From Bryum argenteum (Eukaryota > Streptophyta > Bryopsida > Bryales > Bryaceae), in contig CM073328.1 in NCBI GenBank assembly GCA_037043015.1, positions 13,303,495 to 13,367,494 on the forward strand: a stretch of 64,000 nt of DNA. Direction: 5' to 3'. The translations under genes and the position numbers were made by a program. Below, one piece after another: positions 6,879-31,658 of this stretch (the stretch's first letter is position 1; every line of letters begins with the position of its first letter). The notes below the pieces were generated by a model. It made no database searches. It saw nothing but the letters and a program-made list of their open reading frames with translations, and was not told the origin of the DNA.

Positions 6879-7646
6879 TACTTAGTAATAGCTAATTAGA
6901 GGAAATAAAACCCTCATTCCCGCCTATCCGGGTAATGACCGGGTAGAGCTGACTTAGCTAGGGACCTCCCTACCCGGGAGCATCCCTAAGCTTAGTGGGC
7001 ATGATAGGGTAACGGAACTTCTAACCTTTCCTTCGCCTTTTAGTCCTCGTCTCTAACCAGGACCCGGTCTCACCATACCTAGCCCAAATGCTGAGTGCCC
7101 GGGTAAGGCTGAGTCGACTGTTGGCGGGTTGACCCCAACCCGGGGAAAGCAAGTTCTGACCCGGCTTAATCGATCGAACATGTGCTAACCGCACAGGGTT
7201 GGTCCGGGTACGATATGCCCGGGCACGATCGGTCCGGGGACGACCCGGACGGTCATCGTCCGACCAACCATGGCCCGGCCCGGCTATGGCCCGGCCGATC
7301 ATAACCTAACCGGTTATAACTCGACCGGTTATCAATGGCCGGGGAAGCCGCCGGGTACAAGGACGGGCCGGGCGGTAGAACCACCGGCGGCGCCGACAGT
7401 CCCGGGCTGACAAGCCCGTGATTAAGGCCGCGCCACCAAAAGGTACCGCCACCTCCTCCACTCTCTTTTGTCGATTAGTGGCGCGGGGAAGGCCGTTGTC
7501 CTCCCTTTTTGATTTCCCCCCCCCCCTTTTCTCTCTTCCTCGTTTTTCGTACGCCATTGCCGGCTGTGCTGCCCCCCATTCTCGCACGAATCTGTACACG
7601 CGGCCGTCCTGCACACCAAAAGCCCGGAGAGGAAGAGTACGGAGAC
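6879..7646. other. GC-rich leader of the 7-11.7 kb element
   Basis: Base composition changes sharply to GC-rich from about 6920, with many CCCGGG and CCGG words. A polypyrimidine run lies at about 7505-7550. I found no terminal repeat, TATA box or start of a coding frame before the ATG at 7647. It may be a long terminal repeat or untranslated leader, but I could not find a matching copy at 10.7-11.8 kb. Confidence 0.4.
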
Positions 7647-12096: not shown

Positions 12097-12898
12097 ATGC
12101 TGTCCCTCGACGCCTACTCCATATTCGACGCCGAAGACAAGGAGGACATCGACCAGGCGTACGAGGAAGGCCTGACACTTGATCCCACTGACTTCTCCGT
12201 AAACGGTTATTTTGTCGACAAAGGAGAGTTTCCAGAGGTCGGAGGCATGCTTTTGAAGGGCAAGCGCAAAGCTGTTTCGTCTCTTGATGACGAGACCCTG
12301 GATGAGGACGTCCCTGACCAAGAGGGTTCTGAGTCAAGTGGGAGGCCAGTTCACGGTGAAGGCAGCATTTATAGTCTTGGTTCCGGAGAAGATGTCTCCA
12401 CTCCACTCGAAGAGCAAGACATGGAGTTGGACACGACCCCTCGGACACCGCAGGAGTCGCGTACCGCTCCTGGGCGAGGAGGCGGCAGGGGGAGTGTAAA
12501 ACAGAAACGTAATCCCCTGTCGAGGAAATCACCCTCAAGTAGGTTCAAGGCCGAGGAGAGTGCTGAATTGGCAGCACTACAGCGCAAGGTTGAGGAGGAG
12601 ATGGCACACCGGAAAAAGTTGGAAGAGCTCCTTAAACAGCAGAACCTAGAGCAGCGGGAACGCGAAAAGAGGGAACAGGAACGCCATGACAGGGTGATGG
12701 AGATGATGGAGAGTTTAACTGCCGGCCACGCATTAACTTCGGTGCGGACAATGGCAACCACTCCTGCTACACAGGCTATACCCACTTCTCTGCAACCACT
12801 CATGTCCCTGCCGCCTCCAACTACCGAGCCTTCCGTGCCTACGCCTTCATCTCCTACGCCTGAGTTACAACCTGAGGGTGACGCAGAAGAATCTACAG
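12097..12898 (+). CDS. Exon of acidic coiled-coil protein, possibly phosphatase N-terminus
   Basis: The open frame follows a good acceptor (TTTTTTGTAG then ATG). It encodes an acidic N-terminal part, a basic Gly/Arg patch, a strongly charged coiled coil at residues about 148-210 (KAEESAELAALQRKVEEEM and on), and a Pro/Thr-rich tail. The frame reaches a stop at 12913-12915, but a CAG/GT donor lies at 12898/12899 in phase 1. Joined to the exon at 13153-13379 (which also needs phase 1) it would restore an Asp codon and continue the acidic sequence. It may therefore be the 5' exon of the phosphatase gene, with a 254-bp intron, or an independent gene ending at 12915. No domain family is recognised. 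Confidence 0.45.
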
Positions 12899-13033
12899 GT
12901 CCTCCTTCATCTTAGATTTTGGATCGAGTGTTAAGTATTTAAGCTGTAAATGCCGGAAAACACATATACATGTGAAATTTTGTATCAAACAGACATTTTT
13001 TTGTAATTAATACAGGCATGTACTATTTTGCAC

Positions 13034-13054
13034 TTTAGCTCGACTCGAGCTAAA
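13034..13054. repeat. Palindrome of the same family as 11872-12021
   Basis: A 21-bp palindrome, TTTAGCTCG-ACT-CGAGCTAAA, shares the core of the three palindromes about 1.0-1.2 kb upstream. With them it brackets the coiled-coil exon. Confidence 0.8.
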
Positions 13055-13152
13055 CTGTTGCCCTTTTTCCTATCTGCTTCTTGCTGGCTCCCATATTCTA
13101 TTTCCTCCATCTTTCTGTTTCCTGATTCCATAAATTTGTATTGCGTTGCCAG

Positions 13153-13379
13153 ATGTTAATTTGGATGACGAAGCAATCGATGTTCCAGTCATGGATGATG
13201 TCACACTTGAATGTTATCGCCATGAGCGGGTTCCACCGGTGGAAGACTCACTTAAAATGCATGATGTCTCACATACTGAGAATGTTGTTGCTGTCCGTGA
13301 TGAGATAGATTGCACTGAGCAGTCACTCGGGTCAATGGGTATCCAAGTTGAATTAGACGAGAGCAATTATGATAATCAG
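13153..13379 (+). CDS. Upstream exon of SCP-like phosphatase gene
   Basis: This exon follows the acceptor TTGCCAG and ends with AATCAG before GTATTT. Its translation is acidic (DVNLDDEAIDVPVMDDVT and on) and keeps one frame throughout. It ends in phase 0, matching the phase-0 start at 30881. The intron between them (13380-30880) is 17,501 bp only because a transposon sits in it. Removing the element and one target-duplication copy leaves a 129-bp intron with good GT-AG ends. Confidence 0.6.
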
Positions 13380-13445
13380 GTATTTTCAGTTCCACACTCT
13401 CACCCATGCCATGGATGCTATGTATTACATAATTCTGACCTTGAA

Positions 13446-13464
13446 TTCATCGCCAGGGATGTCA
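13446..13464 (+). repeat. Left target duplication and TIR of giant hAT element
   Basis: Target site duplication TTCATCGC at 13446-13453, followed by terminal inverted repeat CAGGGATGTCA at 13454-13464. Both recur exactly (TIR inverted) at 30807-30825. An 8-bp duplication and a CAGGG-type end are diagnostic of the hAT superfamily. Confidence 0.92.
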
Positions 13465-13870
13465 CAGCGTCCGGTCGTCCGGACGTCCGGCGGACGTCTG
13501 ACAGGGGTCCGGGGACCGTCCGTGACTTAGAAAATCTGATCGTTTTACCAAGGGTAAATGACCAACGGGGTGCGTTCATTGGTCGAACCACCCCGTCGAT
13601 CGTCCCGACCTTCTCGCCCGACCGACCGGCCGGCCGCCAGGCGACCGGCCGTCGGCCGCGGGTGACCGACCGGGCTTCGGCCGTCGGCCGAACAACCGCC
13701 GTCGGCCGCCGGGGGTGACGGCCTTTTCCGGCCGGCCGGCCACCGGCGGCGACCGTCCGTCGGTCCGCCGTCGTCTCGCTTGGCGACGGGCGTTAGCTGG
13801 GCGACCGGCCGTTGGCTCGGGCGACCGCCGTCGGCTCGGCGACCGCCCTCGCATCTCTGCGACCGCCAAT
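13465..13870. repeat. GC-rich subterminal block 1
   Basis: Dense GGCCGACCG / GGCGACCGGCC words with very high GC and CpG, next to the left TIR and directly upstream of the transposase TATA box. Related blocks occur at 21075-21625, 23455-23565, 26240-26605 and 30345-30640. ORFs crossing it are low-complexity artefacts. Confidence 0.8.
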
Positions 13871-13950
13871 GGCCAGATGGCCCTTTTGAGCATCCAACGG
13901 TTTCGAGCATTTCAACTTCAAATTGCAACGGTCATATTCGAGTTGGATGG

Positions 13951-13959
13951 TATATAAAA
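13951..13959 (+). promoter_or_regulatory. TATA box of hAT transposase
   Basis: TATATAAAA lies between the GC-rich block and the transposase coding region, about 290 bp before the ATG at 14244. Transcription would start near 13980. Confidence 0.6.
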
Positions 13960-14243
13960 GAAGACACATTGAGTCTCATTTCACTTCCGAATTTTGAACA
14001 CTTTCCAAGAGCTATGAGCTACATAATTCATTTTATGTGTACATTGCTTGGTAGGTATTGAGTTCGGAAGTGAGGATTTCCGTAAGGAACTCTTGCCATT
14101 TTTTTCCCCGTCACGGTCCCACCATTGTTTAAGACTTTGAGGCGTCCTATTTATCAAAATGGGCCCCGCTCTCCACATGAGCCTTGGTTTAGAGACATCG
14201 AGAAGGAAGGCAAAGCGTCCCTGTCCTTCCTACAGTCTTCACT

Positions 14244-17060
14244 ATGTCGTGTAATTGTTTCAAGAAGAAGAGTCGGAATTTGAGTCATTATGGGTACGAG
14301 AAGATTCCTGGACATAGGGATTCGAGTTCTGCCCTTTGCCCAAAGCTGCCTAGGGAAATTAGGCAATTATTTTTAAGATGTGGTGGGGAGTTCCCTCCAT
14401 ATAACGGAGAATTGGAACTATTTCTCGGTGAATGTTCTCTCACTCCATCCACGGAAGTTCCAGGTGCTTCAAAACATGACATTCCTGAAACCCCTAGGAG
14501 TGACTCTTGTGTAGGGTCCTCGCTAGGCACCCCCATGAATTCAACAAATCTTTTGGTAGGGTCAACCTCTGCTTCTTCCATGCATATGAGGGGAATAAGG
14601 GATACTTGCCCGATGTTTGGATCTATGAAGCAAACGAAGCAATCTTCAATTGAAGCTACTTTTGCGAGAGCGGATAGGCGGGAGTTGGATAAACTCAGGC
14701 GAAATTTTTTACGAAGCAAATATACCATTCTCGCAGCCCGCAATGATGCGTTCAAAGCTGCCGTGATGAAGATTGCGGGATTTCGAAAATCCTATGCTCC
14801 ACCATCCTACCATGACATTCGGACAAGGTTGTTAGGAGAAGTAAAGACGGAGTTATAAAAGAAACTAGATAGTAGACTCTCTGAGAGCCTTCGGAAGTTT
14901 GGAGGAACTTTGACTATGGATGGATGGTCATCTGTGACTAGTCGCCCTTTGGTGAATGCGATGCTCGTGACTCAAGCCGGAGAGCTTTTTCTTGGTGCTG
15001 TCGATACTACTGGCCAAGAAAAAACAGCGGTGTACATGTCAACTCTCATGTTGAAGTACATAGAACAAGTTGGACCAGAGAACATTGTTCAAGTATGCAC
15101 AGACAATGCTTCTGTAATGCTCAATGCCTCAAGAATAGTCCTTGAGAAATATCCGCACATTTTCATGCAAGGGTGTGCGACACATGCAATGGACTTGTTG
15201 TTGGAGGATTGGGGAAAGGCTGGATGGATGGCGAATACTTTGGTCATGGCGAAGAAAATGGTCAAGTTTATCAAGAGGCGACAAATGCCCCTAGCTGTGT
15301 TTCGTAAACACGAGGCGAAATTCAGCCTACTGATGCCTGGGAAAACAAGATTTGCTAGTCAATTCATAATGATAGATCGCTTGTTGGAGGTCAAGGAATC
15401 ATTGGAGCAAGTTGTTGTCGACCCTATGATCACAGCCCATGCCTCGAAGAAGACGGTATCTGCTAAAGATAAGCTTATATTCTCACGTAAGGTCAAGAAG
15501 GTGGTGTTGAGCGATGAGTTTTGGAAGCAATGCAAAAGACTACGGGATATGGTTGCCCCCGTGGTGTACGCTCTGAGAGAATTCGACGACAAGGCTCCTA
15601 GTACGGGCAAGGCATGGCATATCATGCGTGATCTTGAGAGACATGTCCATACTTTGCACGCACCGCCCATCTCATTGGAACCACTTGAGGTGGCCACCGC
15701 AAAAGAGGAGTTTTACCATCGGAAACGGCTCATGACAACGGATTTACATGGCGCGGCTGCACTTTTAAATCCTTATTTACTACAAGACCAAGACTTAGCT
15801 GACGATCCCGATCTTACAATAGCTTGCAAGCGTGTTTTACAAAAATTACGTCCCGCGGATGATTACGCAGACGTGGTGAGTGAATTTCTTGCGTTTCGAG
15901 TAAGGGGTCCACCATTCCATGATATGCTGGAGCCTAATACTCAAAAACTAGCTCCACATGCATGGTGGGAGTTTGAAGGTGCTTGTGCTAAGCTCCTCTC
16001 TCCAATTGCAAAGCGAATACTAGCGCAGACCGTGTCCTCGTCGGCTTGCGAACGCAACTAGAGTAGCTACTCTTATGTTCACGACAAAAAACGGAATCGG
16101 TTACTACCGGGCAGAGCTGATGACTTGGTCTACATATATTCCAACTCGAAATTGCTCGCGAATGATAAGTTGAGTGATGATGGGCGGTGGTATAGAGAGA
16201 ACTTGGATTTAGAGGAAGACCAAGTACATGAGAATGATGAGGAAGCTGTCGAGGACGAATCAGAGTCTGATGACAATGATGTTTTTGAATTTGGCGATGA
16301 AGATGATGATATGACTTTCTTCCCCGCTTCAAATGATGAAGATTCTCCAAATGTTCATGATGGTAATGGTGATTTTATCGCTCATGGTCTTTCAGCAGAT
16401 GATCTAGATGATGAGCAGCCGTTAGCCCGGTTAATGACACAAGGCGGCATGGACAAATCAAATAACGTCCTACCTGTTATCGCTACTGGTTTACGGTTGG
16501 AAAAGGAGGCGATAGATGCGAAGACCACTGCGTGCAACACAACTGCGGGCACTATGAGCTCTGATCCGGTCGCGGAAAATATCGCATCCGGTAGTAAGGA
16601 TCAAGTATCTGATCAATGTGCTACTCCCCGCGCTTTATTTCAACCCTCTACTACAAGGGTTACGACAACCTTGGAGAAATCGTCTAAGGGTTTAGTATCC
16701 CTTTCAAGAGCCAAATATGGGAGCATCTCTAGTGACTCTGATGTACCGTTGGGCAGGTATTTAAAGAATGCCAATGTTCTTCGTACTGCCACGGGGTTAC
16801 AGCACATGCTTGGCACTTCCAAGTCGCATAAACGGAAATCTGCAACGGTTCCAATTGTTCCGCCTAAAAAACCGAAGATCCCTGTTAATCTCCCCGAATT
16901 TGATACTTGGCATAAGTATGGGAATATACAATGTCCAGAGAATAAACCCAAGATCAAAGAGGAGGTTCCAAGCGATTATGAATATGATCCTACGGGATCT
17001 AGTGGAGCTGAAGTGAAGGGAGATAGCGATTATGAGCAATCCTCTGGTCCTGATGAGTAG
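14244..17060 (+). pseudogene. hAT transposase (DUF659 type) with two stops
   Basis: A single reading frame of 939 codons is interrupted only by TAA at 14856-14858 and TAG at 16059-16061. The start carries the second half of a BED-type zinc finger (CNCFKKK, then a PG...CPKLPREIR segment). A DUF659/hAT catalytic region follows with TMDGWSS and QVCTDNASVM. The C-terminal hAT dimerisation domain (FEGACAKLL to SSSACERN, stop, SSYSYV) lies around the second stop, and the tail is long and acidic. The stop contexts fit CAA to TAA and TGG to TAG, both C-to-T type changes. The first half of the BED finger is unclear and may lie upstream in another frame. Its TIR and target-duplication class agree with the ends of the enclosing element, so this is probably the gene that once moved it. 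Confidence 0.85.
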
Positions 17061-17385
17061 TTGAATTTCGCATCTTTATCTAGTATAGGTTCATAGGACT
17101 TATATTTATTATAGAAATTGTAGTTATAGTTTACTGTAGTACTTTATTGTTATACTCCAAATGCATTTGGAGATTCTATTGTCTACATGACTACATTTAA
17201 TGTTTTGAAAAATATTACATATATTTTTACATACTTGTCGTACGATAGTCTTCACTCTCAAGCATACAAAAGAAATGCACATTAAATCAAAAAGATTGTA
17301 ACCCTTTACTTCAAAAATAAGGCCCCATGGATCAATGGTGGCATTTGCATCATTTTTAAAACAACAACCATACAATCTAAAAAAA

Positions 17386-17423
<38 letters not shown>

Positions 17424-17584
17424 AGTTATATATGTGGAACTTAAGGTCCAACATCCGTTCTAACTTCAAATCAAGATCCATCCGATTGGCCAATCCGAGC
17501 TACATCAAAGTACGCGGTCTTTGACTTGGACGGGCAATTCGACCGCCCTCTTCATACTCTCGATCCACCGCGCCATTTCGCCTC
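17061..17584. other. AT-rich convergent intergenic region with (TA)n
   Basis: 3' sequences of the transposase (+) and of the minus-strand RING unit meet here. A TA dinucleotide run lies at 17388-17419. No gene seen. Confidence 0.5.
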
Positions 17585-18140
17585 TCATACCGCCCGCCAA
17601 CTATCCTCCCCATCGTCGCCCGATTGCCTCTTCCGCTTTTTGCTCGGATCCACTTGTTTGTTACGTAAGATTTCCATGGCCTTCTCGATCTTTGCAATGA
17701 CATCCTGTACAACACCTTCAAACTCATCCAATAGTAGAAGTTGTGTGTCTTTTGGGTTTAAAAGACATTCTCTCCAAAATGTAATGGCGTCATCGATACG
17801 CGTATCAAACTTCTTCACCGCATCCCAATAAGAGACCTCCACATCTTCAAAAGAATTTTCCGGTATCGAAATCCGAATATTGCGGCCTCCTCCAATTTCG
17901 CGAGTACCGAGCTCTTCCAATTGGAGTATGATCGTACTTCTTGTACTCTTCACCAAAGCCTGTTGAATCGGTTATTTCGTGCACGAACCATCTTCTCCTT
18001 TTTCGACTTTCTTTCGAGGAAATCGAAAAAACGGTTGTGTTCGATGCTCCAATGCCCCCGAAATTACGACAAAACAACTCTCGTTGCTCATCACCTTCAA
18101 TATTCCTCGCCCTGATCTCTATTTCGTAATCTCGTGTCAT
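17585..18140 (-). pseudogene. C-terminal fragment of RING gene unit, frameshifted
   Basis: Two overlapping minus-strand frames (18140 down to 17847, then 17956 down to 17585) are both protein-like. The second is highly charged and helical (SYWDAVKKFDTRIDDAITF and on) and ends with a basic KKRKR patch. The change of frame near 17930 suggests one protein broken by an indel. It lies directly downstream of the RING frame and may be its continuation or a separate last exon. No family recognised. Confidence 0.35.
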
Positions 18141-18170
18141 CCAAAATAACTGATCATGATCCCCACCAAA

Positions 18171-19113
18171 TTAAATGGCTAGTTGGTGTTTTGATTCGGA
18201 TGTACTCCAGGTAAGAGCATTTCCCCAATCAGAGTAGTTTAGAAATTTCTTCGGGTATTGATCCAATGGAAGATTCCATCGGTTGAACTCGTGCCCTGGT
18301 GGCATAAGATCTCGAATGCCCATCATCTCGTAGAATCTCGTGCTAAATGGGGAGCGACATACTGGACATACCGATTTTGTCATCGCATATCGGCATATGC
18401 AAGTAACATGAAAGTTATGGCTACATTGGCCTAACGTGTATGCGCCCTCTGGACCAAAATTATGTAGGCACACCGCACATTTGTCTTTAAGTATTGCGGG
18501 AGGAGGGTCGCATGTGTTGATTACTATGCGAGCTGACTCTTGGAGGTGCGATGAGAATCTACTATACGGCGCCCATCCTTCCTCTATCTCCATAGTCCAA
18601 TCAACATCATTGTTTCGTCCCATCTTAGAGTAGTTTGTACGCTCCATCATCTCTTCAATATCCCCCCAAAAAGTGACCTCTATGGGGTCATATCGTTTTT
18701 TCGATCTGTTCGTAACGAACTTCTCCAATGAAGCATCTACAACTTCACGTGATTCCTTTGATGTAGATGCAATCGATTTCAGATCTTCTTTTGCTCTCGA
18801 AACCAAGCTCCTCTTATCTTGAAGTCGATGAACCCATCCCAACCATGGTAGTATGCGTAGGTGAAGGTGGATTGCTTTGCCTCTCGTAGAATCTACCGTT
18901 TTGAAGGTTTTCCGTAATGCCTCCAATTCAAATGATCGCCTCATCTCTCTCTTTACTTGTAGCCTCCAACTTCATTGAGCATGCTTTTGCTTCCTCCTCC
19001 AATTTCGCAAGTGTAACATCTCTCTCCTTCTTCACTGCCGCGAACTTCATCGCCCATGCTCGTTGTCGCTCAATCTGTCCATCATCTACCTCCTTTTGTG
19101 ATCTTAACTTCAA
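18171..19113 (-). pseudogene. RING-H2 protein with coiled coil, frameshifted
   Basis: The frame 18944-18171 encodes 257 residues with a complete C3H2C3 RING-H2 finger: Cys156, Cys159, Cys174, His176, His179, Cys182, Cys193, Cys196 (core CAVCLHNF and CPVCRSPF). Such fingers recruit E2 enzymes for ubiquitin transfer. The preceding piece (19113-18928) is a charged coiled coil in a different frame. The coiled-coil character continues across the overlap at 18928-18944, so a one-base frameshift separates them. This is cargo of the hAT element, on the strand opposite to the transposase and convergent with it. Whether a spliced product avoids the shift is unknown; all zinc ligands are intact. Confidence 0.6.
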
Positions 19114-19173
19114 TTCCTCCGGAAGTTCATCATCGTCATCATCGTCTAGTTCGATAATGGTTTTTCCCTTATC

Positions 19174-20278
19174 TTATTTACCATCCTCTTCACCAACCTC
19201 TTTGAGAGGAGATAAATCCCTGGTATACGTCTTTCTCTTCTCTTCTTCACCATCCTCTTTACCACCCCCATCAATTTGTGAAAGAAAAAGACTATCAGAA
19301 GTCCCGATAATGGTCTTCCCCTTATCTTTATTACCATCCTTTTCACCATCCTCTTTACCATCGTCTTTACCACCCGCATCACATTCTGGAACAACATAAC
19401 TACATGAAGCCCCCTGAGTGTCATCCTGTGGTGGAAATAAGTTGAAATACTTATATCGGTTATCTTCTAAGTCTTCTACCGCCTGCCTTTGGCGCATTGC
19501 TTCTTCGTACTTTGCCACATACTCGCTAGCAGACCTTGGCCAAACAACCGCAATTCCTTGTAAAACTCGTCAAGGAGACGTTGCGTAATTTGGTGTTTTA
19601 TTCTCAGCTTTCTCAATGATTAGCTCATTCTTCGCTCGCTCATTCAAAAGAGAGGTGGAATCGATCTATGATTGCCTCATAATTCACCACAACTTGTGTA
19701 TAATGCCAGGCAACATCGTTGCCAAAGCGTGACTCATTGATACTAAATCGGGAGATATAGTAGCAAGTCTTTCGACACCTCTTTGAAGTCGACGCCTACA
19801 AAGAACTATTGAACCGCCCGAGGCTTTATGCCTAACCTCCTCCTCGCAAACCTTCGTCTTTATCTACCTTATTGCACCAATCGGCCATCATTTCTCGCGG
19901 TTTTCAACCACTCCACCAATCTCTTATTGCTCGGTACATCAGACGCAGATAGTCCACGAAATTTTCCACCATACTACTTTCCGTATGAATGACATCTACG
20001 GCATCTGTAGGTGATATGGTTTCTCGTGGTTCACTTGGCCCTGCCTCCTCTGATGTTGGTACCGGGGTTACACTTGGCCCTGCCTCCTTTGATGTTGGTA
20101 CCGGGGTTACACGAGGTTCTTCAACTACGTTTGCACCTTCGAGCCTATCAGTTATAGTTGGTTCTACGATTGGGGCATCCGTAGGAACCATATTCCTTCC
20201 ATCCTCCTGATGTGTCGTGGTTGTTGGAGGAGATTCCTTCTCCGCCGTCTCATGAGTTTTCCTCCTCAAGTACTGCAA
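19174..20278 (-). pseudogene. Linker region of RING gene unit, repeats and acidic runs
   Basis: Minus-strand frames at 20278-19904 and 19518-19174 are protein-like but separated by stops and frame changes. The first contains a tandem repeat of VTPVPTSKEAGPS-type units. The second has Lys/Asp/Glu/Gly-rich repeats built on GKEDGE-like words. Between them (19519-19903) fragments are open in several frames. I read this as the disordered middle of one decayed gene between the CKKYVKMY domain and the RING; separate genes cannot be excluded. Confidence 0.35.
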
Positions 20279-20712
20279 TAAGGCCTTTGTAGAGTTTGAT
20301 TCTGGATCAAACCTATCAGTGATATCCTTTTGATTTCTCCCGATTCAAGAGGATATGCACTACTCGCCGTGAATGTGCTCCAGTTCACCTTGCGCTTCAA
20401 TATGAGCTCAGCATACACCATGCTCAAGAGCGTATAGGAAAAATAACCCTTGCTCTTGGGACGAGTTCCAAACAATGCCACCCACACTTCTTCAGCACGA
20501 TGAAGGAAGTGATCATCCTTGCATGTTTGAGGGTTGCAAGTAAAATGATTGGTATTAACTTTGTGACATTCCCGAGGCCAAAGTTTCCCAATGCGATACA
20601 TCTTCACATATTTCTTGCACGACGCCATTCTCCAATATTCCTCCGTTTCATTGGCCCAACCGATCTCAAATTTTGATGGCCTCATTATCCAAGATGTCGT
20701 AGTGCAACTCAT
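20266..20712 (-). pseudogene. CKKYVKMY-domain protein, minus copy
   Basis: A 148-residue frame contains the segment CKKYVKMYRIGKLWPR, then CKDDHFLHRAEEVWVALFG. The same arrangement (CKKYVKMYHIMKLWPR, then CKSDHFAHRYHEVTIALG) occurs on the plus strand at 26830-27060. In the other copy the pattern starts C-x2-C, while here the first Cys is replaced (MASC). The conserved Cys, His and DHF-x-HR positions suggest a small zinc-binding domain. I do not recognise the family. It lies at the 5' end of the RING gene unit, next to GC-rich block 2. Confidence 0.5.
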
Positions 20713-21074
20713 GTCTCGCTCCTTTTGGTTTCACTCTCTTTGACGGTGTCTCATGTAAAACCAACTCGGTCCCCACCAATCCTGCGTTTGTGTTTTTACG
20801 CCGCAGGTGACCTCAAGGTCCTGCTCGAATCGCCTTCCATGTTCGTGATATCAATATCCGTCGCCATGAAGAGTAGGGAGTATTTAAAATACCCCAAGAT
20901 ATCCCAAGTATGCAAAAATTCGATCAAAGACCCGCAAGTATCAAGTCGACTTCCCCGCCACCACAAAATGCAAAGACACGAGAAGCTAATGCTTACGGTT
21001 GCGGCTCGATTGAGATGGATGAGTACAAGGAGAAGTGAGGGGAAATGAGGCCCCAAAGCCCTTTATCCCCCTTT
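20713..21074 (-). promoter_or_regulatory. Probable promoter/leader of the minus RING unit
   Basis: Between the minus-strand CKKYVKMY frame and GC-rich block 2 there is a short leader. A TATA-like GGATAAAGG (minus strand) lies at about 21060-21068. Position and order copy the other three gene units of the element (GC block, TATA, gene), but this TATA is weak. Confidence 0.3.
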
Positions 21075-21625
21075 CCCAACCCTAGGGGGACCGCCGCACG
21101 GACCGCCGCTCGGCCAATCACGGCCGCGACCGATGGCAAGCCGGCCGTCCGGCCGACGATCGTGGCGGCCGATCCGGCCGACCGATCGTGGCCGCGGCCG
21201 GCGCCGCCGACCGATGTGGCCGGCCGACGTGGCGCTCCTCGTCTCTCTAAGGGCGGGATGTGGAGGACTTACGCCTCACGCCGCCCGCCCATACTACCGC
21301 TGCCCGGACAAAATTCGTATAAATCTGATTTTTGCATTTTTGGAGGCCCTACAATATTTTTTTTCAGATTTTGAGTTTAAAAATGGGATCTGCGACCCAA
21401 TTTACCCTAAGATGTGTCCCATGATGACATTGGTGACATCAACAACAAAAATTTAGGGGGCAAATTTACCCCCAAATTATTTTATGCGGGCAGGGTTTTG
21501 TGGGCGGGCAGGGAGGCGTAGGTCCTCCACTGTCCCGCCCTTAGTGTCGAGGGTGGCCGCTCGATGCCGGCCGACCGATGCCGGTCGACCAACGCGGCCG
21601 ACCGATGTGGGCAGCCGCTGCGGTT
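21075..21625. repeat. GC-rich block 2, split by a MITE
   Basis: GGCCGACCGAT-type sequence at 21075-21246 and 21545-21625 is interrupted by the 298-bp inverted-repeat insertion at 21247-21544. It sits upstream of the minus-strand RING unit. Confidence 0.75.
21247..21544. mobile_element. 298-bp MITE with about 33-bp TIRs
   Basis: The left end CTAAGGGCGGGATGTGGAGG and the right end (inverted, with a small gap) form inverted repeats of about 33 bp, including a shared GGACTTACGCC / GGCGTAGGTCC part. The inside is AT-rich. I could not find a clean target duplication. It splits a GC-rich block, so it inserted after that block existed. Confidence 0.65.
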
Positions 21626-21663
21626 TTTTTTTCCAATTTTTTTCAATTTTTTTTTAAATTACA

Positions 21664-21671
<8 letters not shown>

Positions 21672-21732
<61 letters not shown>
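21672..21732. repeat. (TA)n microsatellite
   Basis: About 61 bp of uninterrupted TA dinucleotides after poly-T and poly-A runs. The ORF it creates (Ile-Tyr repeats) is not a gene. Confidence 0.95.
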
Positions 21733-21736
<4 letters not shown>

Positions 21737-21739
21737 AAA

Positions 21740-23450
21740 TTCAGAGATCTTACATGGCATAGGATCCTTTTTTTTTCCGCAAAGTTTTTTGTTATTTGAT
21801 TCTCAGTGATCATTACACACTGAAAAAAGAAATCCTAGGTTGATTTCTGAAATGCAATATATTATTTCTCACGGATACATCTTAACCCCTAAAAATCCAC
21901 AATGTTTCGGGAGCTTGAAATCCCAACACAGACCACTATGTACTAATGGGGGTACGTCCAATATTATTGGAAATTATTGATAATTTCAACCGTAGGATCT
22001 TGAAGTAGACTACCATTGGTAGTACTGTGAATATTTTTAACCGTTGGATCATCACTAGGTGTGAGATCGTAACGTTTGAAGTTGACTGTAAATTATTTTT
22101 TCCTTCACTGTAAACGCCGAATCGGTGGCCGTGGTCGTTTAGGGGTTAACTATAAATTTTAAGTTCATAACCATTTTGAGTGGACTCTTTAAAGTGTAAA
22201 TCTTCACAAATTCATAGATGTTTCAAACATAAGGCATTCATTTGGTTTCGAATCAATATCTGTCTTCTCTATTTTCCTTTTGTAATTTAATTGACCATTG
22301 GCTTCATGAATCAAACTTTTAACCACATGACCTACAACAGTAACTCTATTCCAATATTGCATGGTTGAGAATGTCAATTGGAGTATCGTAATCCTAATGT
22401 AGGACACTTATTTTGGAACTCATCCTAAAGAGTTATTCATACATCCTAAACCATAAACCACAAATTCTATCCACGAGTGATTTTATCCACTAGATACTCT
22501 AAATGAAGAAGAGATGCCTATTTAAAATTTTATATTTTCAAAACAATCAATCGAAGAAAGAGTTATATGACTTATATCGGAAATTACTAGAAATTGTGAA
22601 GATTATTTTTGTAATCTTTCAATAGTACCCTTGTGAAATAGACAAACATTTTGACTTGGGTCACTTTAGAACTGAAGTAGTAAATTGTTCATGAACATAT
22701 TTCCAAAAAAGAATTTCAAACAAAGACTAAATTTAACTGCCCTTAATGGATTTCAAACGTAAATATTATAGATGTAGGTTGTAAATTTGGAATTTGGATA
22801 TGCAAATTTTACCACATGCACTTTGCGGTGTAAGGACCACCTAGAAAAAATTTAATAAAAAATTATTACTTTTGACCTCTTCATATAAGCTGCCCGAAAT
22901 AGGAAACCTCCACTTTGGCATCCATGGATCTTTAGAGGTTAAGAAGGAATATTTTAACAAAAATAAATTAAGGTGTACAATCAAAAGCATGGTCTTTTAC
23001 TAATAATAAGAATTGGCCCCATTGCCTTTGCTTTCCTTATAAACAAGGGCATGAACTCTCAATGCCTTCACAAATGAGAAAATTGACCACACTATATTGA
23101 TTGTTAAATGTTTACTTCGATTCGAGCCAATTGGGCACAACAACTCAAAAAGTGAGTGTATTGGCGTGGAGATTTGCTCGCCTTAACTCCCCTTGAAGAA
23201 AGTCCATTACTATGGATATATTTAAAGCCAAGAGTATCTTTGTCATAAAACATTCTCGCGTGGGACAAAGAGATATTCCCGACATTCTCTTGTCAGAAAA
23301 TTCCCTGTCCATATTTAGACGCCATGTGGATCATAAAGACTAAATATAGTACTTCTGAAAATGCAGGTATGCAAGGCGAGGAAGTGATCGAGTTGTGCAA
23401 ACGGGGAGTTTGGGGAGAGGCAAGAGGAGGAGGGGGAAGGGGGGACGCGG
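21740..23450 (+). repeat. Tandem-duplicated spacer, unit 1
   Basis: AT-rich non-coding sequence homologous, in the same order, to 23620-26240. Matching parts include 21740-21890 with 23620-23755, 22150-22400 with 23765-23990, and 22965-23440 with 25765-26230. Each unit ends in a purine-rich AGGCAAGAGGAGGAGGGGGA run followed by a GC-rich block. Unit 1 carries a TTAA MITE; part of that MITE's sequence family also appears in unit 2 at about 25535-25745. No gene seen. Confidence 0.8.
21896..22145. mobile_element. TTAA-flanked MITE, copy D (250 bp)
   Basis: Begins CCCCTAAAAATCC and ends TTTAGGGG, flanked on both sides by TTAA (21892-21895 and 22146-22149). Ends and inner motifs (ACCGTAGGATCTTG, ACCGTTGGATC) match three longer copies at 35456-36049, 36838-37415 and 56312-56889. 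The tandem duplicate of the surrounding spacer, at about 23750-23770, lacks it and has a TTAA at that place. Confidence 0.75.
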
Positions 23451-23454
23451 AAGG

Positions 23455-23565
23455 AGCGACCGACCGGTCGCCCGGGGGACGTGGTCGGTCCCCAGGCCGG
23501 TCGCCGGACGCCGGGCCGGTCGCACGCCCGCCCGATGGCGGCCAACCGATATGGGCCGCCGCAGT
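23455..23565. repeat. GC-rich block 3
   Basis: A short GGTCGCCCGGG / GGCCGGTCGC block between the two spacer units, with no gene start next to it. Probably a truncated copy of the gene-associated blocks 2 and 4. Confidence 0.75.
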
Positions 23566-23569
23566 ACAG

Positions 23570-26239
23570 TTTTTTTTTTTTTTATATATATATTTTTTTT
23601 TTCCTTAAATATATAACTAAAATAAGATAAAATTGCATAGGATCCTTTTTTTATTTCTCAAAGATTTCTGTTACTCGATTTTCAGTAATTACTACACAAT
23701 GAAAAAGGAATCCTATGTTGATTTCTGAAATGCTAAGTATTCTTTTTTCACGGATACATTAAAGTTCATAACCATTTCGAGTGAACTCCATAAAAGTATA
23801 GATCTTCACGAATTCAAAGATGTTTCCTACAAATACTACTTCAGTACTCATACGTTATGATCTATGAGGCTCTATGAATTAAACTCTGAGCCACATGACC
23901 TACAATAGTAACTCTATTCCAATATTGGTTTAAAATAGGCTATGAGATTGAAGACTCTGGAATCATAATTCGTATGTTGATGTTTAATATTGTACCTATA
24001 TATTCTTTGCAATAAATGTGTGATTTATTCCATGTCAATAACATCTTCAATCAAAAATGATAAATACAAAATAGATTATTTTGCACATATTAACTATGCG
24101 ATGTAGAGAAGTGCAACTTGTATCCATGTAAAATATAATTGAGAACTACACCATACATACAGTAATCCATTATTTTACATCCACACACAATTGTGTTTGC
24201 AAAGCTTTGCAACACAAAAACTAGGATTAAAATGAAATACACCCCAAATCCTCAAGACCATAAACCCTAAACCCTAAACCCTATACCCTAGAGGCCTACA
24301 TAGTAATTTATACATCTTTAACCAAGAACTTAAAGTTTATCCACAAGAGAATGTATCCATTACATACAGTAAATGAAGAAGTGATGGCTCTTCAAAATAT
24401 TCTATTCCCAAATCAATCAATCATAGTATACGAATAATCAATTTGATATAACATCTAATCCTAGTACTAATGTACTATACTTGTACAATATCAAATATGC
24501 TTAAAAATTTAGAAGTTGATGCCATTATTGCCATATTTTAAACACTTATAGGGTGGGATATTTTTTAAAATTTGTTTGTCTCCCTATTTATTTCACTTAT
24601 TTTATGATTGCAAAAATACTAACAATGAAAACTTATTTCAATTACCTTTGTAAGAGGGAAATAAGTAACTATTCAAATCCATACAATAAGAATAATGCTA
24701 CAATTAATCATATGTACTAGATTATATATATTCTCCTAGGTTAGTTGAAGGTTGTCAAACAAAAAATAGCGAATAATAGAATTAATTGTTTATGCACCAT
24801 ATTTTTTATAATAAGTATTACTAATTAGAATACACAACGACGGAGTAATTTCCAAATACCCATCAATTAATATAGACCATACAATGTGGAAATGTTAAGG
24901 CCCAAATAGAATGTCTAAATATTGACAAACTCAGTAAGACCAAAGTTATGAAAAGTAAATGCTCACACATGATCACCTACATTTCATATATACTTGGATC
25001 TCTCCAATGTGAGACATCAATATACTCTCACCAAGGACTAGGTAAAATTTATAGAATGTAATCAGAGGGGATTTAGGGCCACCTCAGGGTACACAATATG
25101 GGGCAAGTCATGAATGGGGGCCAAGACATGGCAAAATCCTAGTGAGAATGGATAAATTTTGACAAAAGTTGGGAGATAGAAGAAATGAATGTGAATCCAT
25201 GGGAGCTTGCTATACTAGCACTCACCACTATGAACTATGATGAAACCACCTAAATGCGGGAGGCAAAGATTCTTGCCTTTATAAAGATCTCACCTCTCGT
25301 GCATTTACATTATGCGTACATATTTAGGGTGCCCGCCTTTCGGTTCTAATTATAAAATTGGTATTTCTTTATGTGTGTGCTTTAAAAAAGCACATAAATA
25401 GGGTTAGCTTGTCTTTCTCTATTTCCTATCCGTGAAAAATAGTAACCCACTCCTTTCTCACACCAAGTATATAGATTCCCTCAATTTTCCTTAAGTGTAC
25501 GAGAATAGGTGGTTTCACTACAAAGGGGCTATGTCCAATATTTTTGGATATAGTTTATAATTTCAACCATAGGATCTTGAGTAAACTACCATATGTAGTA
25601 GTGTGAAATCTTCAACCGTTGGATCATCACTAGATGCGAGATCATTACATTTGAAATTGAATATGAAACATTTTTTGGCCGTGACGATAAAAGACGAAAT
25701 GGTGGCCATGGTTGTTAAGGTGTTAGGGAAGAATAATTCCAAAAAACAAAAAATAAAAAATAAATGTGTACAAAAAAAAAACATGGACTTTAGTTAATAA
25801 TAAGAATTGGCCCCATGGCCTTGGCTCTCCTTCTAGACATGGGCTTCAACTCCAAAGGACTTCACGACTCGGAAAATTGGCCCCACTAAATTGGTTGTTA
25901 AATGTATTGTTCAATTAAAGCTAATTGGGCAACATAACTCAAAAAGTGCGTGAATTGGCTTGGAGATTTGTTGGCCTTCCCTCCTCTTGCAAAGAGTCCC
26001 TTACTATAGGTTTATTTAAAGCCGATAGTATCTTTGTCATAAAACATTCCCGTTTATGACGAAAAGACATTCCCGACATTCCCTTGTCAGAACATTCCCT
26101 GTCCTTATTTAGACGCCACGTGGACCAAAGAGGCTAAATATAGAACTTTTGAAAATGCAGGTATGCAAGGCGAGGAAGTGTTCGAAGTTGTGCAAACGGG
26201 GAGTTTTGGGGTGAGGCAAGAGGAGGAGGGGGAAGGGGA
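23570..26239 (+). repeat. Tandem-duplicated spacer, unit 2
   Basis: A longer, diverged copy of 21740-23450 with extra AT-rich sequence at about 24000-25500. It includes a short CCCTAAA run at 24261-24289. No coding region recognised in 2.7 kb. Confidence 0.75.
24261..24289 (+). repeat. Short interstitial CCCTAAA run
   Basis: About four units of the plant telomere-type repeat CCCTAAA, the last degenerate. Too short to mean a telomere. Confidence 0.8.
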
Positions 26240-26605
26240 GACGCGGAAGGAGCGACCGACCGGCCGCCGGGGGGGGTCGGGTCGATCGCCCGGCCCGATC
26301 GTCGGTCTCGGCCCGATCGCGCCCGATCGCCCGGCCGGTCGTCGATCTCGGCCCGGTCGCCGGTCGCCCGGCCCCGGTCGGGTGGCGGATGCGGCCGACC
26401 GACCGGTCGCCGGTCGCCAGGGCGGTCAGCGATCGGTCGCCCGGTCGGCCGGATTGGTCGGCCGGGATCGGCGGCCCCGATCGACCGATCGGACGTGCGA
26501 CCCCGATCGGTCGTACCGGCCGGTCGCCGGCCGCCGGATCGCCGATTTGACGGCTGCCGGTCGGGATCGGACGGCCAATGGCGCCCGATCCCGGTCGGCA
26601 TAAAT
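26240..26605. repeat. GC-rich block 4
   Basis: GGTCGCCCGGCC / CCGATCGG-type sequence directly upstream of the TATA box of the plus-strand CKKYVKMY gene. Overlapping Arg/Pro/Gly-rich ORFs on both strands are artefacts of composition. Confidence 0.8.
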
Positions 26606-26606
26606 A
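26600..26606 (+). promoter_or_regulatory. TATA box of plus-strand CKKYVKMY gene
   Basis: ATAAATA at the edge of GC-rich block 4, about 140 bp before the ATG at 26746. Confidence 0.5.
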
Positions 26607-26745
26607 GGCCGGGAGGGGCTCATTGTCCTCACTCACGTGACGAGCCGCGGTGCGTTGCGGCTTTTTAAAGTCGCATCGATCACATGTTACTCGAGTCCGC
26701 GTGGTTCACCCACGCCCACACTGTGCATACTTGTCGCTACTGGAA

Positions 26746-28000
26746 ATGGCGCCGAAGTTTTCACGTTCGAGGGGCGAGGCCAAGTCTCCACGACCAAAGG
26801 GCGACCCTCCAAAAATGGATTGGGAAGCATGGAGTGACCCAAATTGTGTTGCAGAGCCGGGTTTGCGAGAGGAGAGGGCGGACATTTGGAATTGCACCAT
26901 GTGCAAGAAGTACGTGAAGATGTACCACATCATGAAGTTATGGCCGCGGCACGAAGCAGAGAAATATGGTCCTCGTCGTGAAGGCCCAGTGAAGAGTTGC
27001 AAGAGCGACCATTTTGCGCACAGATATCACGAAGTCACAATTGCGCTTGGAATCAAGAACACAAGGCCGAATTGATGTTGTATTCTACCATGGCCATGGT
27101 GTGTGGGCTGAAATAGTCCCGCACAAGGACATTGACTGACCACCTGTGATAGGTTTGAAAGTACATTTATTGGATCGCAGCAACCGATTCATTCCCACAA
27201 ATTGGATGGGACCAAGCATTTGTTATACTACGTATTCGTAACGCGTTCACCGATATGGATGCCCAACTTCAACAACATGGAACTCCAAGGGCATATGGGG
27301 CACTCAAAGAAGACTCAAACCATGACGATCGTCAAGCACCGGTATCCTTTGGCATAGGAAGTGAGGGGTATTACCATGGAAACCACCAATTCAAGATCCC
27401 GTGAGTTATATGCCACCTCATCAAAGAAAACACGTACGGAGCCGAACGCGAGTACGGTAGAGGTGGATCTAGTTCAAACTACCCATCTCCAATGTATACG
27501 GGAGGTACACATGGTTTAGGAGGTGAGCGGGGTAGCGGATCCAATGCTCAATGCAACTCAAGCCCAACTCATCCTATAAACCCATACAATCGTGGGAACC
27601 AATACGGTACAACATTCGGAAGTCCCGAGTACCGTAGGCCATCACACCAAGGAAACATACGAGTATGGAGGTCAATATGATAGAAGATCGGACATTGTTG
27701 GCTACACAAATTATGGATATGGTCGAATGCATACGGAAGTAACGACCGCCTTGAAAGACCTTATCTATCTCCGGAGGACGAAGAGGCGAGGTACCAACAA
27801 GATCCGCAACAAGCCACACTTCTAAGTCGGCGGAATACAATGAATGTTTCGAAGCCGAAAGAAACTTCGGCAAACGTCTTGTTTGGAGAATCTTCTCGAG
27901 GACCACCTTCTTACTTACGTTGCAAGGCCAAGTCGTAAACACGATGATGAAGAATCGGATTAAGAATGACAAATCATCATACATAGTGTCATTGTAGTGA
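26746..28000 (+). pseudogene. CKKYVKMY-domain protein, plus copy, decayed 3' part
   Basis: From the ATG at 26746 the frame gives a basic start (MAPKFSRSRGEAKSPRPKG) and the domain WNCTMCKKYVKMYHIMKLWPR, then SCKSDHFAHRYHEVTIALG, stopping at 27073-27075. Just after the stop, another frame continues with LYSTMAMVCGLK. This aligns with YTLLSMVYAELILK in the minus copy at 20266-20712, so the stop is probably a frameshift. Downstream, open pieces at 27490-27835 are rich in Gly, Tyr, Asn and Ser and lie in several frames. The potential zinc ligands C-x2-C and C-x2-DHF-x-HR are complete here. Function unknown; it is convergent with the kinase gene. Confidence 0.5.
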
Positions 28001-28681
28001 AGGTTATGTAGTTTTTGGCAACGGATAATGTCTACACCATTATCGCCTTGCTAGGGGCCAATTTTGAGGATACAGAAATCCATATTTTGTTTATGAATGG
28101 ATTATCCAATATTGGACTATATCGTTGTATATTAATATACTATGTAATTTGTTATTTCAAGGATTTTATGGCGATGTCTTTATATTTTATACTATAAGTT
28201 CACTTGGTGGTAATAATTTCTTCTGTTTGGCTTTAAGCCTTTTTTCACAGTCTCACACTCTCACCTAACATATAATATGTTCATCAATTCATTCAAAAAA
28301 AAGCATATGTAAGAAAAGTCATATTATGCTTGAGCTGACTTCGGACAAACCATTAATATCGCAACTACGCAAGGTTGATGTAATGAAGAAGTTCCACAAT
28401 TCATTATACATTCTCAAATATTGTTCATGAAGATTTGGAGATATTTCTATTGAAGGTAAGAAGTAATAAAATAAAATAACAAACAATGGAGAAGAAGTCA
28501 TTCATTAGAATCAGTCAAAGGTATATATAAAAAAAGAATGTACTTGAAGCCGATACATATAGAAGGCATGTAATACATTTTACTACAAAAAATTTGCCTA
28601 CATCTACATCAGAACTTCAATGAAGAATCTAAAAATCTAATAAAGCCGGAAGAACTAAAAGAAATGCGCATAACTAATTTG
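28001..28681. other. AT-rich convergent intergenic region
   Basis: 3' flanks of the CKKYVKMY gene and the kinase gene. Only short chance ORFs. Confidence 0.5.
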
Positions 28682-30232
28682 CTAATCATACTTGGTGCGA
28701 TAATGATCATTTGGCACGGGCCAATGGAATGATTCCATGAAGCGGTTGACAACGTGGGTCAACGTATACTTTGCATCAGCCACCATCTTCAAGTATTGGT
28801 CAAAAGCATTTGCCAAGTCTTGATTGCACCACCGGTCAGGCCCCGTTGTACTTTGGCAATTCTCGTAGGCCTTCGACATGCTCTTCTTGAGGATGCGTTG
28901 TGCTATTCGTGCCGTAGCAAACTCCTCCGAAGCGCAATCAAGAAGGGGAATAATGTGAATGTCATCACTCCGTTTGTACAAGTACGCCACCCGAGGATCT
29001 ACCCAATATCGTGCTTGTAGAGTATCAATTCGCTCTTGGGGTTTTGTGAACGTATACAAGGACCTCATTTTATCATCCATGCTCGTACTTAGCCCCCAAT
29101 CACATACTCCAATATACACCCGTGATTCATCTTGAGGGAAGTGAAGAAGTATGTTGTCTGGAGACACATCGTTGTGGAGGTAGTTCAACCGGTGGACTTC
29201 ACACATGATGTGCACTAAAGCCCAAGCAAGCTCTATTCGTTTTTTGCGGAACCGGACCAACTGCCAAGCTCGAATAAGCTCATCATCAGAATGAGGTGAG
29301 AGTCCGATCTCTCCATGAACATCATCTCCATATCTTGCATCAAGGGCCAACATCGATCGAATCGTGCCGCCATTCCACCAATACGTATAGCCTTGGAATT
29401 TATTTGCATGAATGGCTATAAAACGAATAACACCTGGATGTTGTATCCTCACAACAAGCGCCTCATTCTGATGCTCCACCTTGGCCAAGTCTGGTTGTGT
29501 CACAGCATGGATGGGAGTCTTTGCAGCAAATTCCCAAAACTCTTCAATACCCACAACCCCTCTTATGTGAACTTTGGAAATTGTGCCGTATCCTCCCCTT
29601 AGAGTCCTCTTCTCAAGCTCGATGATACGGGCCGTCATAGGAATTACTACCAAATTATTCGTACGAACCAGCTCCATTAACCTTCCTTGTTCCGTGCGCC
29701 ACCATCCTATGGAACCAACCCGGTTTGCATTATTGGAATACGGCCTCATCGCTTCTTGAAAAGCCTCCGCCCTCAATACCACATCCCTGAACTCCTCATC
29801 ACCCGCTCGAGTGGTTCTCTCATACATCTTCAATATGTCGACAGCATTCCAGAGAGCATCAATTAATCTATCCTCCATCCAGTCCGTAAAACCACGCTTA
29901 TCGGTCTCCGTTCTCCACACCGGATCTTGGAGCGCTTCCATCATGAGGTCCATCATGTCGTCCTTGAATTTGGCCACAGCTTCCTCTTTGTATCTCACGT
30001 ATTTACTAAACAAACGTGGAAGACTGTTAGCCTCATAAAATCGCACGATTACATTCTCCCGAAGAAAGTTCTTGCACTTATTGGATGGGTGCTCCCACTT
30101 CTCCAAATGTCTATGAACCCTTGGTCTCCGGCCTCGATTCCCCCCACTACCCCCAGCCCCATGTTTGGGCATCTTTGTGAAAATAAAAGCAAAATCTCCC
30201 CCCTTACAAACGAAAAGACTTCTTTCCTCCAC
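28682..30232 (-). CDS. Protein kinase-like cargo gene, intact ORF
   Basis: An uninterrupted 516-residue frame. After an N-terminal helical region of about 200 residues comes a protein kinase domain: Gly-rich loop RGGYGTISKV (212-221), Lys238 in FAAK, Glu257 in NEA, catalytic loop YLHNDVSPDN with Asp355 and Asn360, and metal-binding DWG (378-380). The usual HRD is HND and DFG is DWG, but Lys, Glu, Asp, Asn and Asp are all kept, so it may be active. The domain then shortens and ends in an unrecognised helical tail. A TATA box lies about 105 bp upstream beside GC-rich block 5 and the right TIR. It is the only long cargo frame free of stops, which suggests recent capture or selection. The second Met (residue 21, MPKHGAGG) is an alternative start. 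Confidence 0.75.
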   Translation of the reverse strand: MEERSLFVCKGGDFAFIFTKMPKHGAGGSGGNRGRRPRVHRHLEKWEHPSNKCKNFLRENVIVRFYEANSLPRLFSKYVRYKEEAVAKFKDDMMDLMMEALQDPVWRTETDKRGFTDWMEDRLIDALWNAVDILKMYERTTRAGDEEFRDVVLRAEAFQEAMRPYSNNANRVGSIGWWRTEQGRLMELVRTNNLVVIPMTARIIELEKRTLRGGYGTISKVHIRGVVGIEEFWEFAAKTPIHAVTQPDLAKVEHQNEALVVRIQHPGVIRFIAIHANKFQGYTYWWNGGTIRSMLALDARYGDDVHGEIGLSPHSDDELIRAWQLVRFRKKRIELAWALVHIMCEVHRLNYLHNDVSPDNILLHFPQDESRVYIGVCDWGLSTSMDDKMRSLYTFTKPQERIDTLQARYWVDPRVAYLYKRSDDIHIIPLLDCASEEFATARIAQRILKKSMSKAYENCQSTTGPDRWCNQDLANAFDQYLKMVADAKYTLTHVVNRFMESFHWPVPNDHYRTKYD

Positions 30233-30336
30233 AGGATAAGGAGCCAGTGGATGAAAATTAAAAAAATTTCCAACCTACAGCTACTCCGCACCCTGATAAC
30301 GAAGGAAAGAAGTGTGGAGAGTGGAGGCAGGTCGGC

Positions 30337-30345
30337 CTTATATAG
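30337..30345 (-). promoter_or_regulatory. TATA box of kinase gene
   Basis: On the minus strand TATATAAGG lies between GC-rich block 5 and the kinase start at 30232. Confidence 0.6.
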
Positions 30346-30640
30346 GCCGCGGTCGCATGGCCGACCCGCGACCTAAATCGGACGGCCGATGGCCGACCGG
30401 CCCGACCGATGTGACGGTCGGCGCCGACCGGCGCGACCGAACAGCCGCGGCCGACCGACCGATCGGACGGCCGACGCCGACCGGGGCCCATCCGACGGCC
30501 GACCGAACCCGCGACCGATCGGACGGCCGGCGGCCGATCAAGCGACCGATCCGTCGGCTGCGACCGATCCGACGGCGTCGACCGGTCGGTCGGCAAGGCC
30601 AATCGGACGGTCCTGGGCCGCCCGATTCAATCCAACGGTA
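30345..30640. repeat. GC-rich subterminal block 5
   Basis: GGCCGACCGAC / GATCGGACGGCC repeats next to the right end of the element, mirroring block 1 at the left end. Confidence 0.8.
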
Positions 30641-30806
30641 ATCACCTACACTCACAACACTATTTGAACGGCTACGATGCGATTTTCAATACGATCTGAC
30701 GGTTAAAAAATTTACTTTATGCATAGTAATTCCGATTTACCCCCCGGACGGACGTCCGGACGGACGGACATCCGTCCGACCAAAAAAACCCAAAAGACGT
30801 CCGGAT

Positions 30807-30825
30807 TGACATCCCTGTTCATCGC
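30807..30825 (-). repeat. Right TIR and target duplication of giant hAT element
   Basis: TGACATCCCTG at 30807-30817 is the exact inverse of the left TIR; TTCATCGC follows at 30818-30825. Inside the TIR, GGACGTCCG words match the left subterminal sequence. Confidence 0.92.
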
Positions 30826-30880
30826 ACCAGTGACGAAAGCTCCCCAGTAATTTTGTCATGGTGCGCCGTTTTCATTTCAG

Positions 30881-31658
30881 GTCAACGAGGCATCGGTCAA
30901 TGATTTAATATCTAGAGAAGACATAGGTCGGGTTCCAAGGAAATCCTCGGATACTTGGTTAAATGTTGTTCTCGACCTCAATGGTATCCTCTGCAGTTGT
31001 TCCCCATTTTGGGAAGCTAAAGGATACAGAAATCGTAACTTCCGTGTTCACTCGGCCACGTTGCCAACCGAGGTGGGGAAGAAGCTTGTATGGGTGAGGC
31101 CCAACTGTAAGGACTTCCTCTCTCGGGTGGCATCGTTTGCTACCATCACGGTTTGGAGTTCGATGATGAGAACGACCACAGAAGCCATTTGTGATTTTCT
31201 CTTCGGTCCTATAAACCCTATAAGGCCGCTACGAATTCTTGGTCAAGAAGACTGACATGATTCCCTTGAAATCTGGTGGGAGCCGACCATTATTCATGAA
31301 GGAACCGGGAACTCAAAAGTCTATCTTCCTTAAGACCTTGTCAGCTCATATCTTTAATAGCTTTGATGGTTTTTATACAGAGGCTAATACGCTCATCATA
31401 GATGATAGTCCGGTTAAGCACGTGCTTAATCAACGGGAAAATGTTCTTTTACTACCATGTTGGTCTCACAAGGACAATAGGGCACACGAGGACTCTATTT
31501 TGTTAGATGAGGTTTTGCCGTATCTGTTAGATCTCCATGAGTTTGACGGTCCCCTTAGCAAGTTTCGGGCATCGTTTCAATTTGGACGTGCCATGTTATA
31601 TGATGATCGTGCATCATTAGATCTGTATAATGAAATACAAAAGGCCTTTGTAGAATGA
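30881..31658 (+). CDS. SCP/FCP1-like (HAD) phosphatase domain, one frameshift
   Basis: This exon begins after TTTCATTTCAG in phase 0. It encodes a NIF/CTD-phosphatase-like HAD domain: VVLDLNGILC (motif I), VWVRPNCKDFL, TITVWSSMM and later TLIIDDSPVK. The nucleophile Asp is at 30974-30976; the second motif-I Asp is Asn (DLN), as I recall from some plant relatives, so catalysis may differ. The frame ends at TGA (31253-31255) and resumes one frame over (TDMIPLKSGG and on) to a stop at 31656-31658. The join falls where a Cys codon would be expected, so a single-base loss, or a sequence error, is likely. FCP/SCP enzymes dephosphorylate proteins such as the RNA polymerase II tail; the substrate here is unknown. 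Confidence 0.7.

Follow-up and report, generated by a model that had tools for sequence, protein, structure and literature searches.

Elements of the hAT superfamily have usually been described as carrying one gene in 2.5–5 kb (PMC8961557), and of 903 maize elements bounded by Ac/Ds ends all are much shorter than Ac except three that resemble it (PMC3260210). A 2018 survey did not detect hAT homologues in the moss Physcomitrella (PMC6027215), so mosses may hold a branch of hATs that has been overlooked. Here we describe an element of 17,364 bp from the moss Bryum argenteum, located at positions 13454–30817 of a 64-kb stretch of contig CM073328.1 (positions 13,303,495 to 13,367,494 of the forward strand, assembly GCA_037043015.1) which we refer to as the window. 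Judged by its transposase, ends and target duplications, the element is a hAT, probably of the Ac type, and it has four genes which look like a fixed and old complement: a hAT transposase, a protein with a C/H domain and a RING, a second C/H-domain protein with a low-complexity tail, and a divergent kinase.

Ends and copies of the element

A sequence-only reading of the window had placed the element between identical flanks and given it perfect inverted ends of 11 bp, and both were found exactly where it had put them, with TTCATCGC on either side:

13446..13453, no strand: target site duplication, left copy TTCATCGC (exact; present as a single copy at all five empty paralogous sites fetched)
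13454..13464, + strand: left terminal inverted repeat, 11 bp, CAGGGATGTCA (exact; perfect)
30807..30817, − strand: right terminal inverted repeat, 11 bp, TGACATCCCTG on the + strand (exact; perfect)
30818..30825, no strand: target site duplication, right copy TTCATCGC (exact)

The 11-mer occurs once per strand in the window, and three features by which hATs are recognised are present, namely a dimerisation domain in the transposase, ends of 11 bp (10–25 bp are expected) and a target duplication of 8 bp. The duplications of the copies described below lean to nTnnnnAn, with T at position 2 in 16 of 20 and A at position 7 in 13 of 20. Ends, duplications and empty sites together support a predicted cut-and-paste movement by a hAT transposase acting at the 11-bp ends.

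Further copies with the same ends are numerous in the genome (258.8 Mb in 25 contigs), where the left end has 219 matches (21-base pattern, up to 2 mismatches) and the right end 216 (26-base pattern, up to 3 mismatches), with no match for either reversed pattern used as a control. Pairing was based on the 100 left and 98 right ends listed, all of them exact matches and together under half of all ends, and gave 44 correctly oriented pairs at distances of up to 45 kb, versus 3 in the wrong orientation. Twenty-five of the 44 are 16.0–17.4 kb long, the shortest and longest of all 44 being 16,004 and 35,395 bp, and no pair of these listed ends is shorter than 16 kb, rare short forms being possible among the rest. 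With the window copy and C1:16.08M set aside, both flanks were fetched for 20 of the 23 pairs of 16.0–17.4 kb, and the flanking 8-mers were identical in 19 and agreed at 7/8 positions in the other, versus 2 of 380 mismatched pairings that reached at least 7/8. Among the copies followed individually, the duplication is exact in C9:8.40M and agrees at 7/8 positions in C1:17.70M and 6/8 in C1:16.08M.

Of 30 kinase loci, counting that of the window, 26 have the exact right terminus CATCCCTG at the same point, followed by unrelated flanks. Among the remaining four, L010 differs there by a single base, and the alignments place L030 at window position 30820, L034 at 30817 and L013 at 30794. Copies ending internally, near 21.6 or 26.2 kb, which would have spoken against a single unit, were not seen among these loci and pairs. 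Seven copies of the window subfamily were opened and five could be traced end to end, and these five, each at a different site, agree in their blocks and in block order, which supports the view that the whole 17-kb unit spread through the genome as one piece. The competing explanation of a nested composite, in which a small hAT owns the outer duplication and the kinase, RING and other blocks were inserted separately, could draw on the repeats and patches of high GC content within this interval and on one genuine nested insertion (21238–21546), but it is very improbable given the identical layout of the five full copies, the duplications that other pairs of this length have of their own, the lack of pairs below 16 kb among the 44, and a sister subfamily with the same gene order.

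At 26 of the 81 merged kinase loci a RING and a transposase lie on the expected side and strand, at 15 the RING only, at 7 the transposase only and at 33 neither, and with the kinase strand flipped as a control a RING was found at one locus. It should be noted that frameshifts hide genes from this linkage search, as seen in the C7 copy, so that the 33 loci are no proof of kinase-only elements, and the genome counts given for the kinase, RING and transposase genes are lower bounds. A modular cargo was also considered, with five of the 25 pairs of 16.0–17.4 kb having no scored transposase, RING or kinase match and six having all three, and was not supported: the one of the five that was read, C7:13.47M, carries all four genes in frameshifted form. 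Contig C1, which makes up 44.1 of the 258.8 Mb (17%), holds 53 of the 81 merged kinase loci, 72 of the 104 transposases and 89 of the 144 RING loci, an enrichment that a non-recombining sex chromosome would explain, for which C1 is a candidate. We also note that the copy at C5:22.15M (L040, L044), near a contig end, has kept the right 5.7 kb alone and adjoins a frame resembling a retrotransposon gag.

The four genes and their age

The interior had been read as holding a transposase of its own and at least three further genes, and the same four genes are indeed found in all five copies followed end to end. In the window they are placed as follows:

14158..17060, + strand: hAT transposase gene, broken in the window copy, 5′ limit approximate
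17550..20869, − strand: ZR gene, with an N-terminal C/H domain within 20269–20730 and a C-terminal RING-H2 within 18174–18971, outer limits approximate
26746..27970, + strand: further part (L047; homologues P0056–P0091)
28682..30172, − strand: protein kinase gene, open in the window copy, 496 amino acids from MPKHG

The transposase of the window copy has in-frame stops at 14856–14858 and 16059–16061 and an unreadable N-terminal cysteine motif, and the frame is open for up to 958–976 amino acids in better-kept copies (958 in C1:16.08M). Frame 14859–16058 of the window matches the Pfam families DUF659 (9.7e-31) and Dimer_Tnp_hAT (6.4e-6) above their cut-offs, and the C1 copy matches DUF659 at 6.5e-35 and Dimer_Tnp_hAT (PF05699) at 4.4e-11, has the C-x2-C stretch QCSLC near its N terminus and gives no Pfam BED match. 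The motifs MDGWS, CTDNAS and CERN are present and presumably contain the catalytic residues. The genome has 106 transposase matches, of which 104 candidates were scored.

The ZR gene lies in pieces in the window copy, with the longest frames elsewhere reaching about 1,000–1,200 amino acids and a complete homologue, P0054, having 1039. Its RING-H2 matches zf-RING_2 (PF13639) at 4e-9, above the Pfam cut-off (frame 18174–18971, − strand), and the protein is a predicted ubiquitin ligase. Kinase, RING and unknown domain had at first been counted as separate items; the domain is real and occurs twice, but P0054 shows that its first copy shares one gene with the RING.

The kinase matches Pfam Pkinase at 1.9e-4, which is under the cut-off (frame 28685–30274, − strand), and its assignment is supported by 52 homologues. 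The Lys, Glu, D-x4-N and DWG motifs are conserved, with no variation at K, E, D, N and D across 37 aligned sequences and almost none at His, and at least 88 genome matches were found, of which 81 candidates were scored. Two of the 52 homologues are named as being from the moss Ceratodon purpureus and one (P0018, on a 2.9-kb contig) is labelled as a Bacilli metagenome-assembled genome (MAG), which we take to be plant DNA binned there. One Ceratodon kinase cluster comprises 126 sequences, and the other accessory proteins have homologues in further sequences outside this genome. Prokaryote genomes gave a single match, to an Acidobacteria MAG (35% across 58 residues), which was taken as chance.

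A sister subfamily, with a transposase identity of about 70%, has the same four genes in the same order, and for this reason the additional genes appear to be an old, jointly inherited set rather than recently captured. The accessory genes common to both subfamilies, including the kinase, are under purifying selection at a synonymous divergence (dS) above 1. Between the kinase P0002 of Ceratodon and that of the sister subfamily the identity is 79%, whereas the two subfamilies of this genome share 55%, so the split between them looks older than the two species. The CAGGGACGTCAATCC sites (L004–L008), which were considered as ends of the sister subfamily, turned out to be one point inside a different repeat.

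These comparisons bear on the possibility of a recent capture, in which a hAT took up host genes by transduplication and multiplied them as passengers that have no function in the element, as is known for hATs from a fungal histone H3 (PMC6710886) and the Pack-hATs of maize (PMC8903248). We consider this unlikely in view of a cargo that is shared across subfamilies at such divergence and under purifying selection, of the apparent age of the split suggested by P0002, and of transposase, kinase and ZR genes that are long uninterrupted frames in the kept copies and not fragments. The extra genes could instead serve the plant, for example in immunity or development, with the hAT as a vehicle in the manner of fungal Starship cargo; kinase and RING are signalling-type proteins and the kinase is under purifying selection, but gene content is identical in the five full copies and the sister copy, and many copies are broken by stops as transposon parts are, and we doubt this explanation to much the same degree. 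Fusions of viruses and transposons are known, and the size and the gene-rich layout of mixed orientation might suggest an endogenised large DNA virus or a transpoviron integrating by a hAT transposase, to which we attach hardly any probability: no capsid, polymerase or packaging family is among the matches that Pfam gave for the ten window frames scanned, and none of the 20 pattern matches in viral contigs codes for a relative of the kinase.

The accessory proteins (kinase, RING protein and scaffold) most likely act for the element itself. We suggest tentatively, as one possibility, that this is an ancient moss lineage of multi-gene hATs in which kinase, RING and C/H domain would form a system acting on the transposase or on host silencing, and would be so strictly required together with the complete element that shorter derivatives, which predominate among the maize relatives of Ac, do not spread.

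Interior repeats, target site and neighbouring features

Three further features concern the interior of the element and its target:

21238..21546, no strand: insertion of about 309 bp with inverted ends CTAAGGGCGGGA, found in the window copy only among those compared (absent from L039, L041 and C7)
21547..26250, no strand: AT-rich spacer without assigned gene, common to the C1:17.70M, C9, C1:16.08M and C7 copies
13380..30880, + strand: intron in which the element sits, belonging to a repeated NIF/FCP1-like phosphatase gene; 129 bp when the element is left out

The insertion resembles a short non-autonomous DNA transposon, and the spacer has diverged internal duplications (e.g. 22983–23282 and 25777–26076, 80%). 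GC-rich patches of CGGCCGACCGAT-like repeats are located at 13.5–13.9, 21.0–21.6, 23.4–23.6, 26.2–26.6 and 30.3–30.6 kb, and all but that at 23.4–23.6 kb lie immediately upstream of the four gene starts, where they might act as common promoters or as arrays bound by the transposase.

Removal of the element had been said to restore a 129-bp intron, and counting by hand agrees, with GT at 13380 and AG ending at 30880; the empty form was also found, as all five paralogues fetched (L052–L056) show a continuous intron with TTCATCGC present once. A single-copy host gene is not what was interrupted, since the NIF/FCP1-like exon has 150 genome matches (a few being two pieces of one gene), and the element is therefore nested in another repeat. 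Parts of the NIF/FCP1-like gene lie at window positions 12097–13379 and 30881–31655, many of the 150 matches fall in an open frame of 269 amino acids, and the repeat may be a gene carried by a different large mobile element. Independently, both flanks of C1:16.08M match the window, at 6851–8226 and 8224–9033, in an uninterrupted relative of its target; this relative of the target repeat extends over 6851–9737 and includes a long Pro/Gly-rich frame (7762–9714) without a Pfam match.

Elsewhere in the window, a stretch of 623 bp (45249–45871) is 98.9% identical to an insert in the C4:25.87M copy (L047 6554–7176) and is probably a recently active small mobile element. A region at 43666–47918 has a TIR domain and a weak NB-ARC match, under the cut-off, in separate frames, followed by a leucine-rich-looking frame, which would be a putative TNL-type resistance gene or its remains. 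A frame at 53320–55287 has a zf-RVT (reverse-transcriptase associated) domain.

Comparison with known systems

Plant cut-and-paste elements with an accessory protein beside the transposase are known in MuDR (mudrA/mudrB) and En/Spm, which belong to other superfamilies, have fewer accessory proteins and are smaller. Titles and the starts of abstracts in open-licence PMC papers gave no description of a multi-gene hAT, of one in which three accessory genes are fixed, or of this family, subscription literature being mostly outside this scope. A four-gene lineage of 17 kb with two subfamilies and homologues elsewhere raises the question of what use a kinase, a RING and an undescribed domain are to a cut-and-paste element, and it also calls for caution in annotation, as gene models named 'kinase' or 'RING' in moss genomes may be transposon genes.

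In being large and having several genes the element is like giant eukaryotic transposons (PMC6431247) and Starships, but the classification of the latter is centred on a tyrosine recombinase (PMC12134995) whereas the transposase here is of the hAT type, and the subset of frames scanned matched no tyrosine-recombinase family in Pfam. The whole word 'hAT' is absent from the text of the giant-transposon review (PMC6431247), and no 'hAT' occurs in PMC13317346. The element also bears on a view held in that review, by which natural DNA transposition falls off significantly once the cargo exceeds 6 kb, although cargoes of 100–200 kb have been moved in artificial constructs (PMC6431247). With the Pack-TYPE hATs of maize and rice (PMC8903248) it shares hAT ends around other coding DNA, but those are non-autonomous and hold captured DNA, whereas five full copies here have their own transposase and the genes are long frames. 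The hAT of Pseudocercospora fijiensis with histone H3 (PMC6710886) likewise has a non-transposase gene at high copy number; it took up one captured housekeeping gene and its copies are inactivated by repeat-induced point mutation, whereas the three genes here recur in a sister subfamily and evolve under purifying selection.

A close likeness is to maize Ac/Ds, in 11-bp ends beginning C/TAGGGATG, duplications of 8 bp and a hAT transposase (PMC3260210), and the duplication bias nTnnnnAn is the Ac-type consensus (PMC8961557). Unlike the maize relatives of Ac, no short pair occurs among the 44 pairs of listed exact ends, and whereas Ac has 4.6 kb and one transposase of 807 amino acids (PMC3260210), the moss element has about 17 kb and four genes. 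The sequence-only reading had called it far larger than ordinary hATs, and with 25 of the 44 pairs at 16.0–17.4 kb against the canonical 2.5–5 kb this is so: the element departs from the canonical hAT in both size and gene number.
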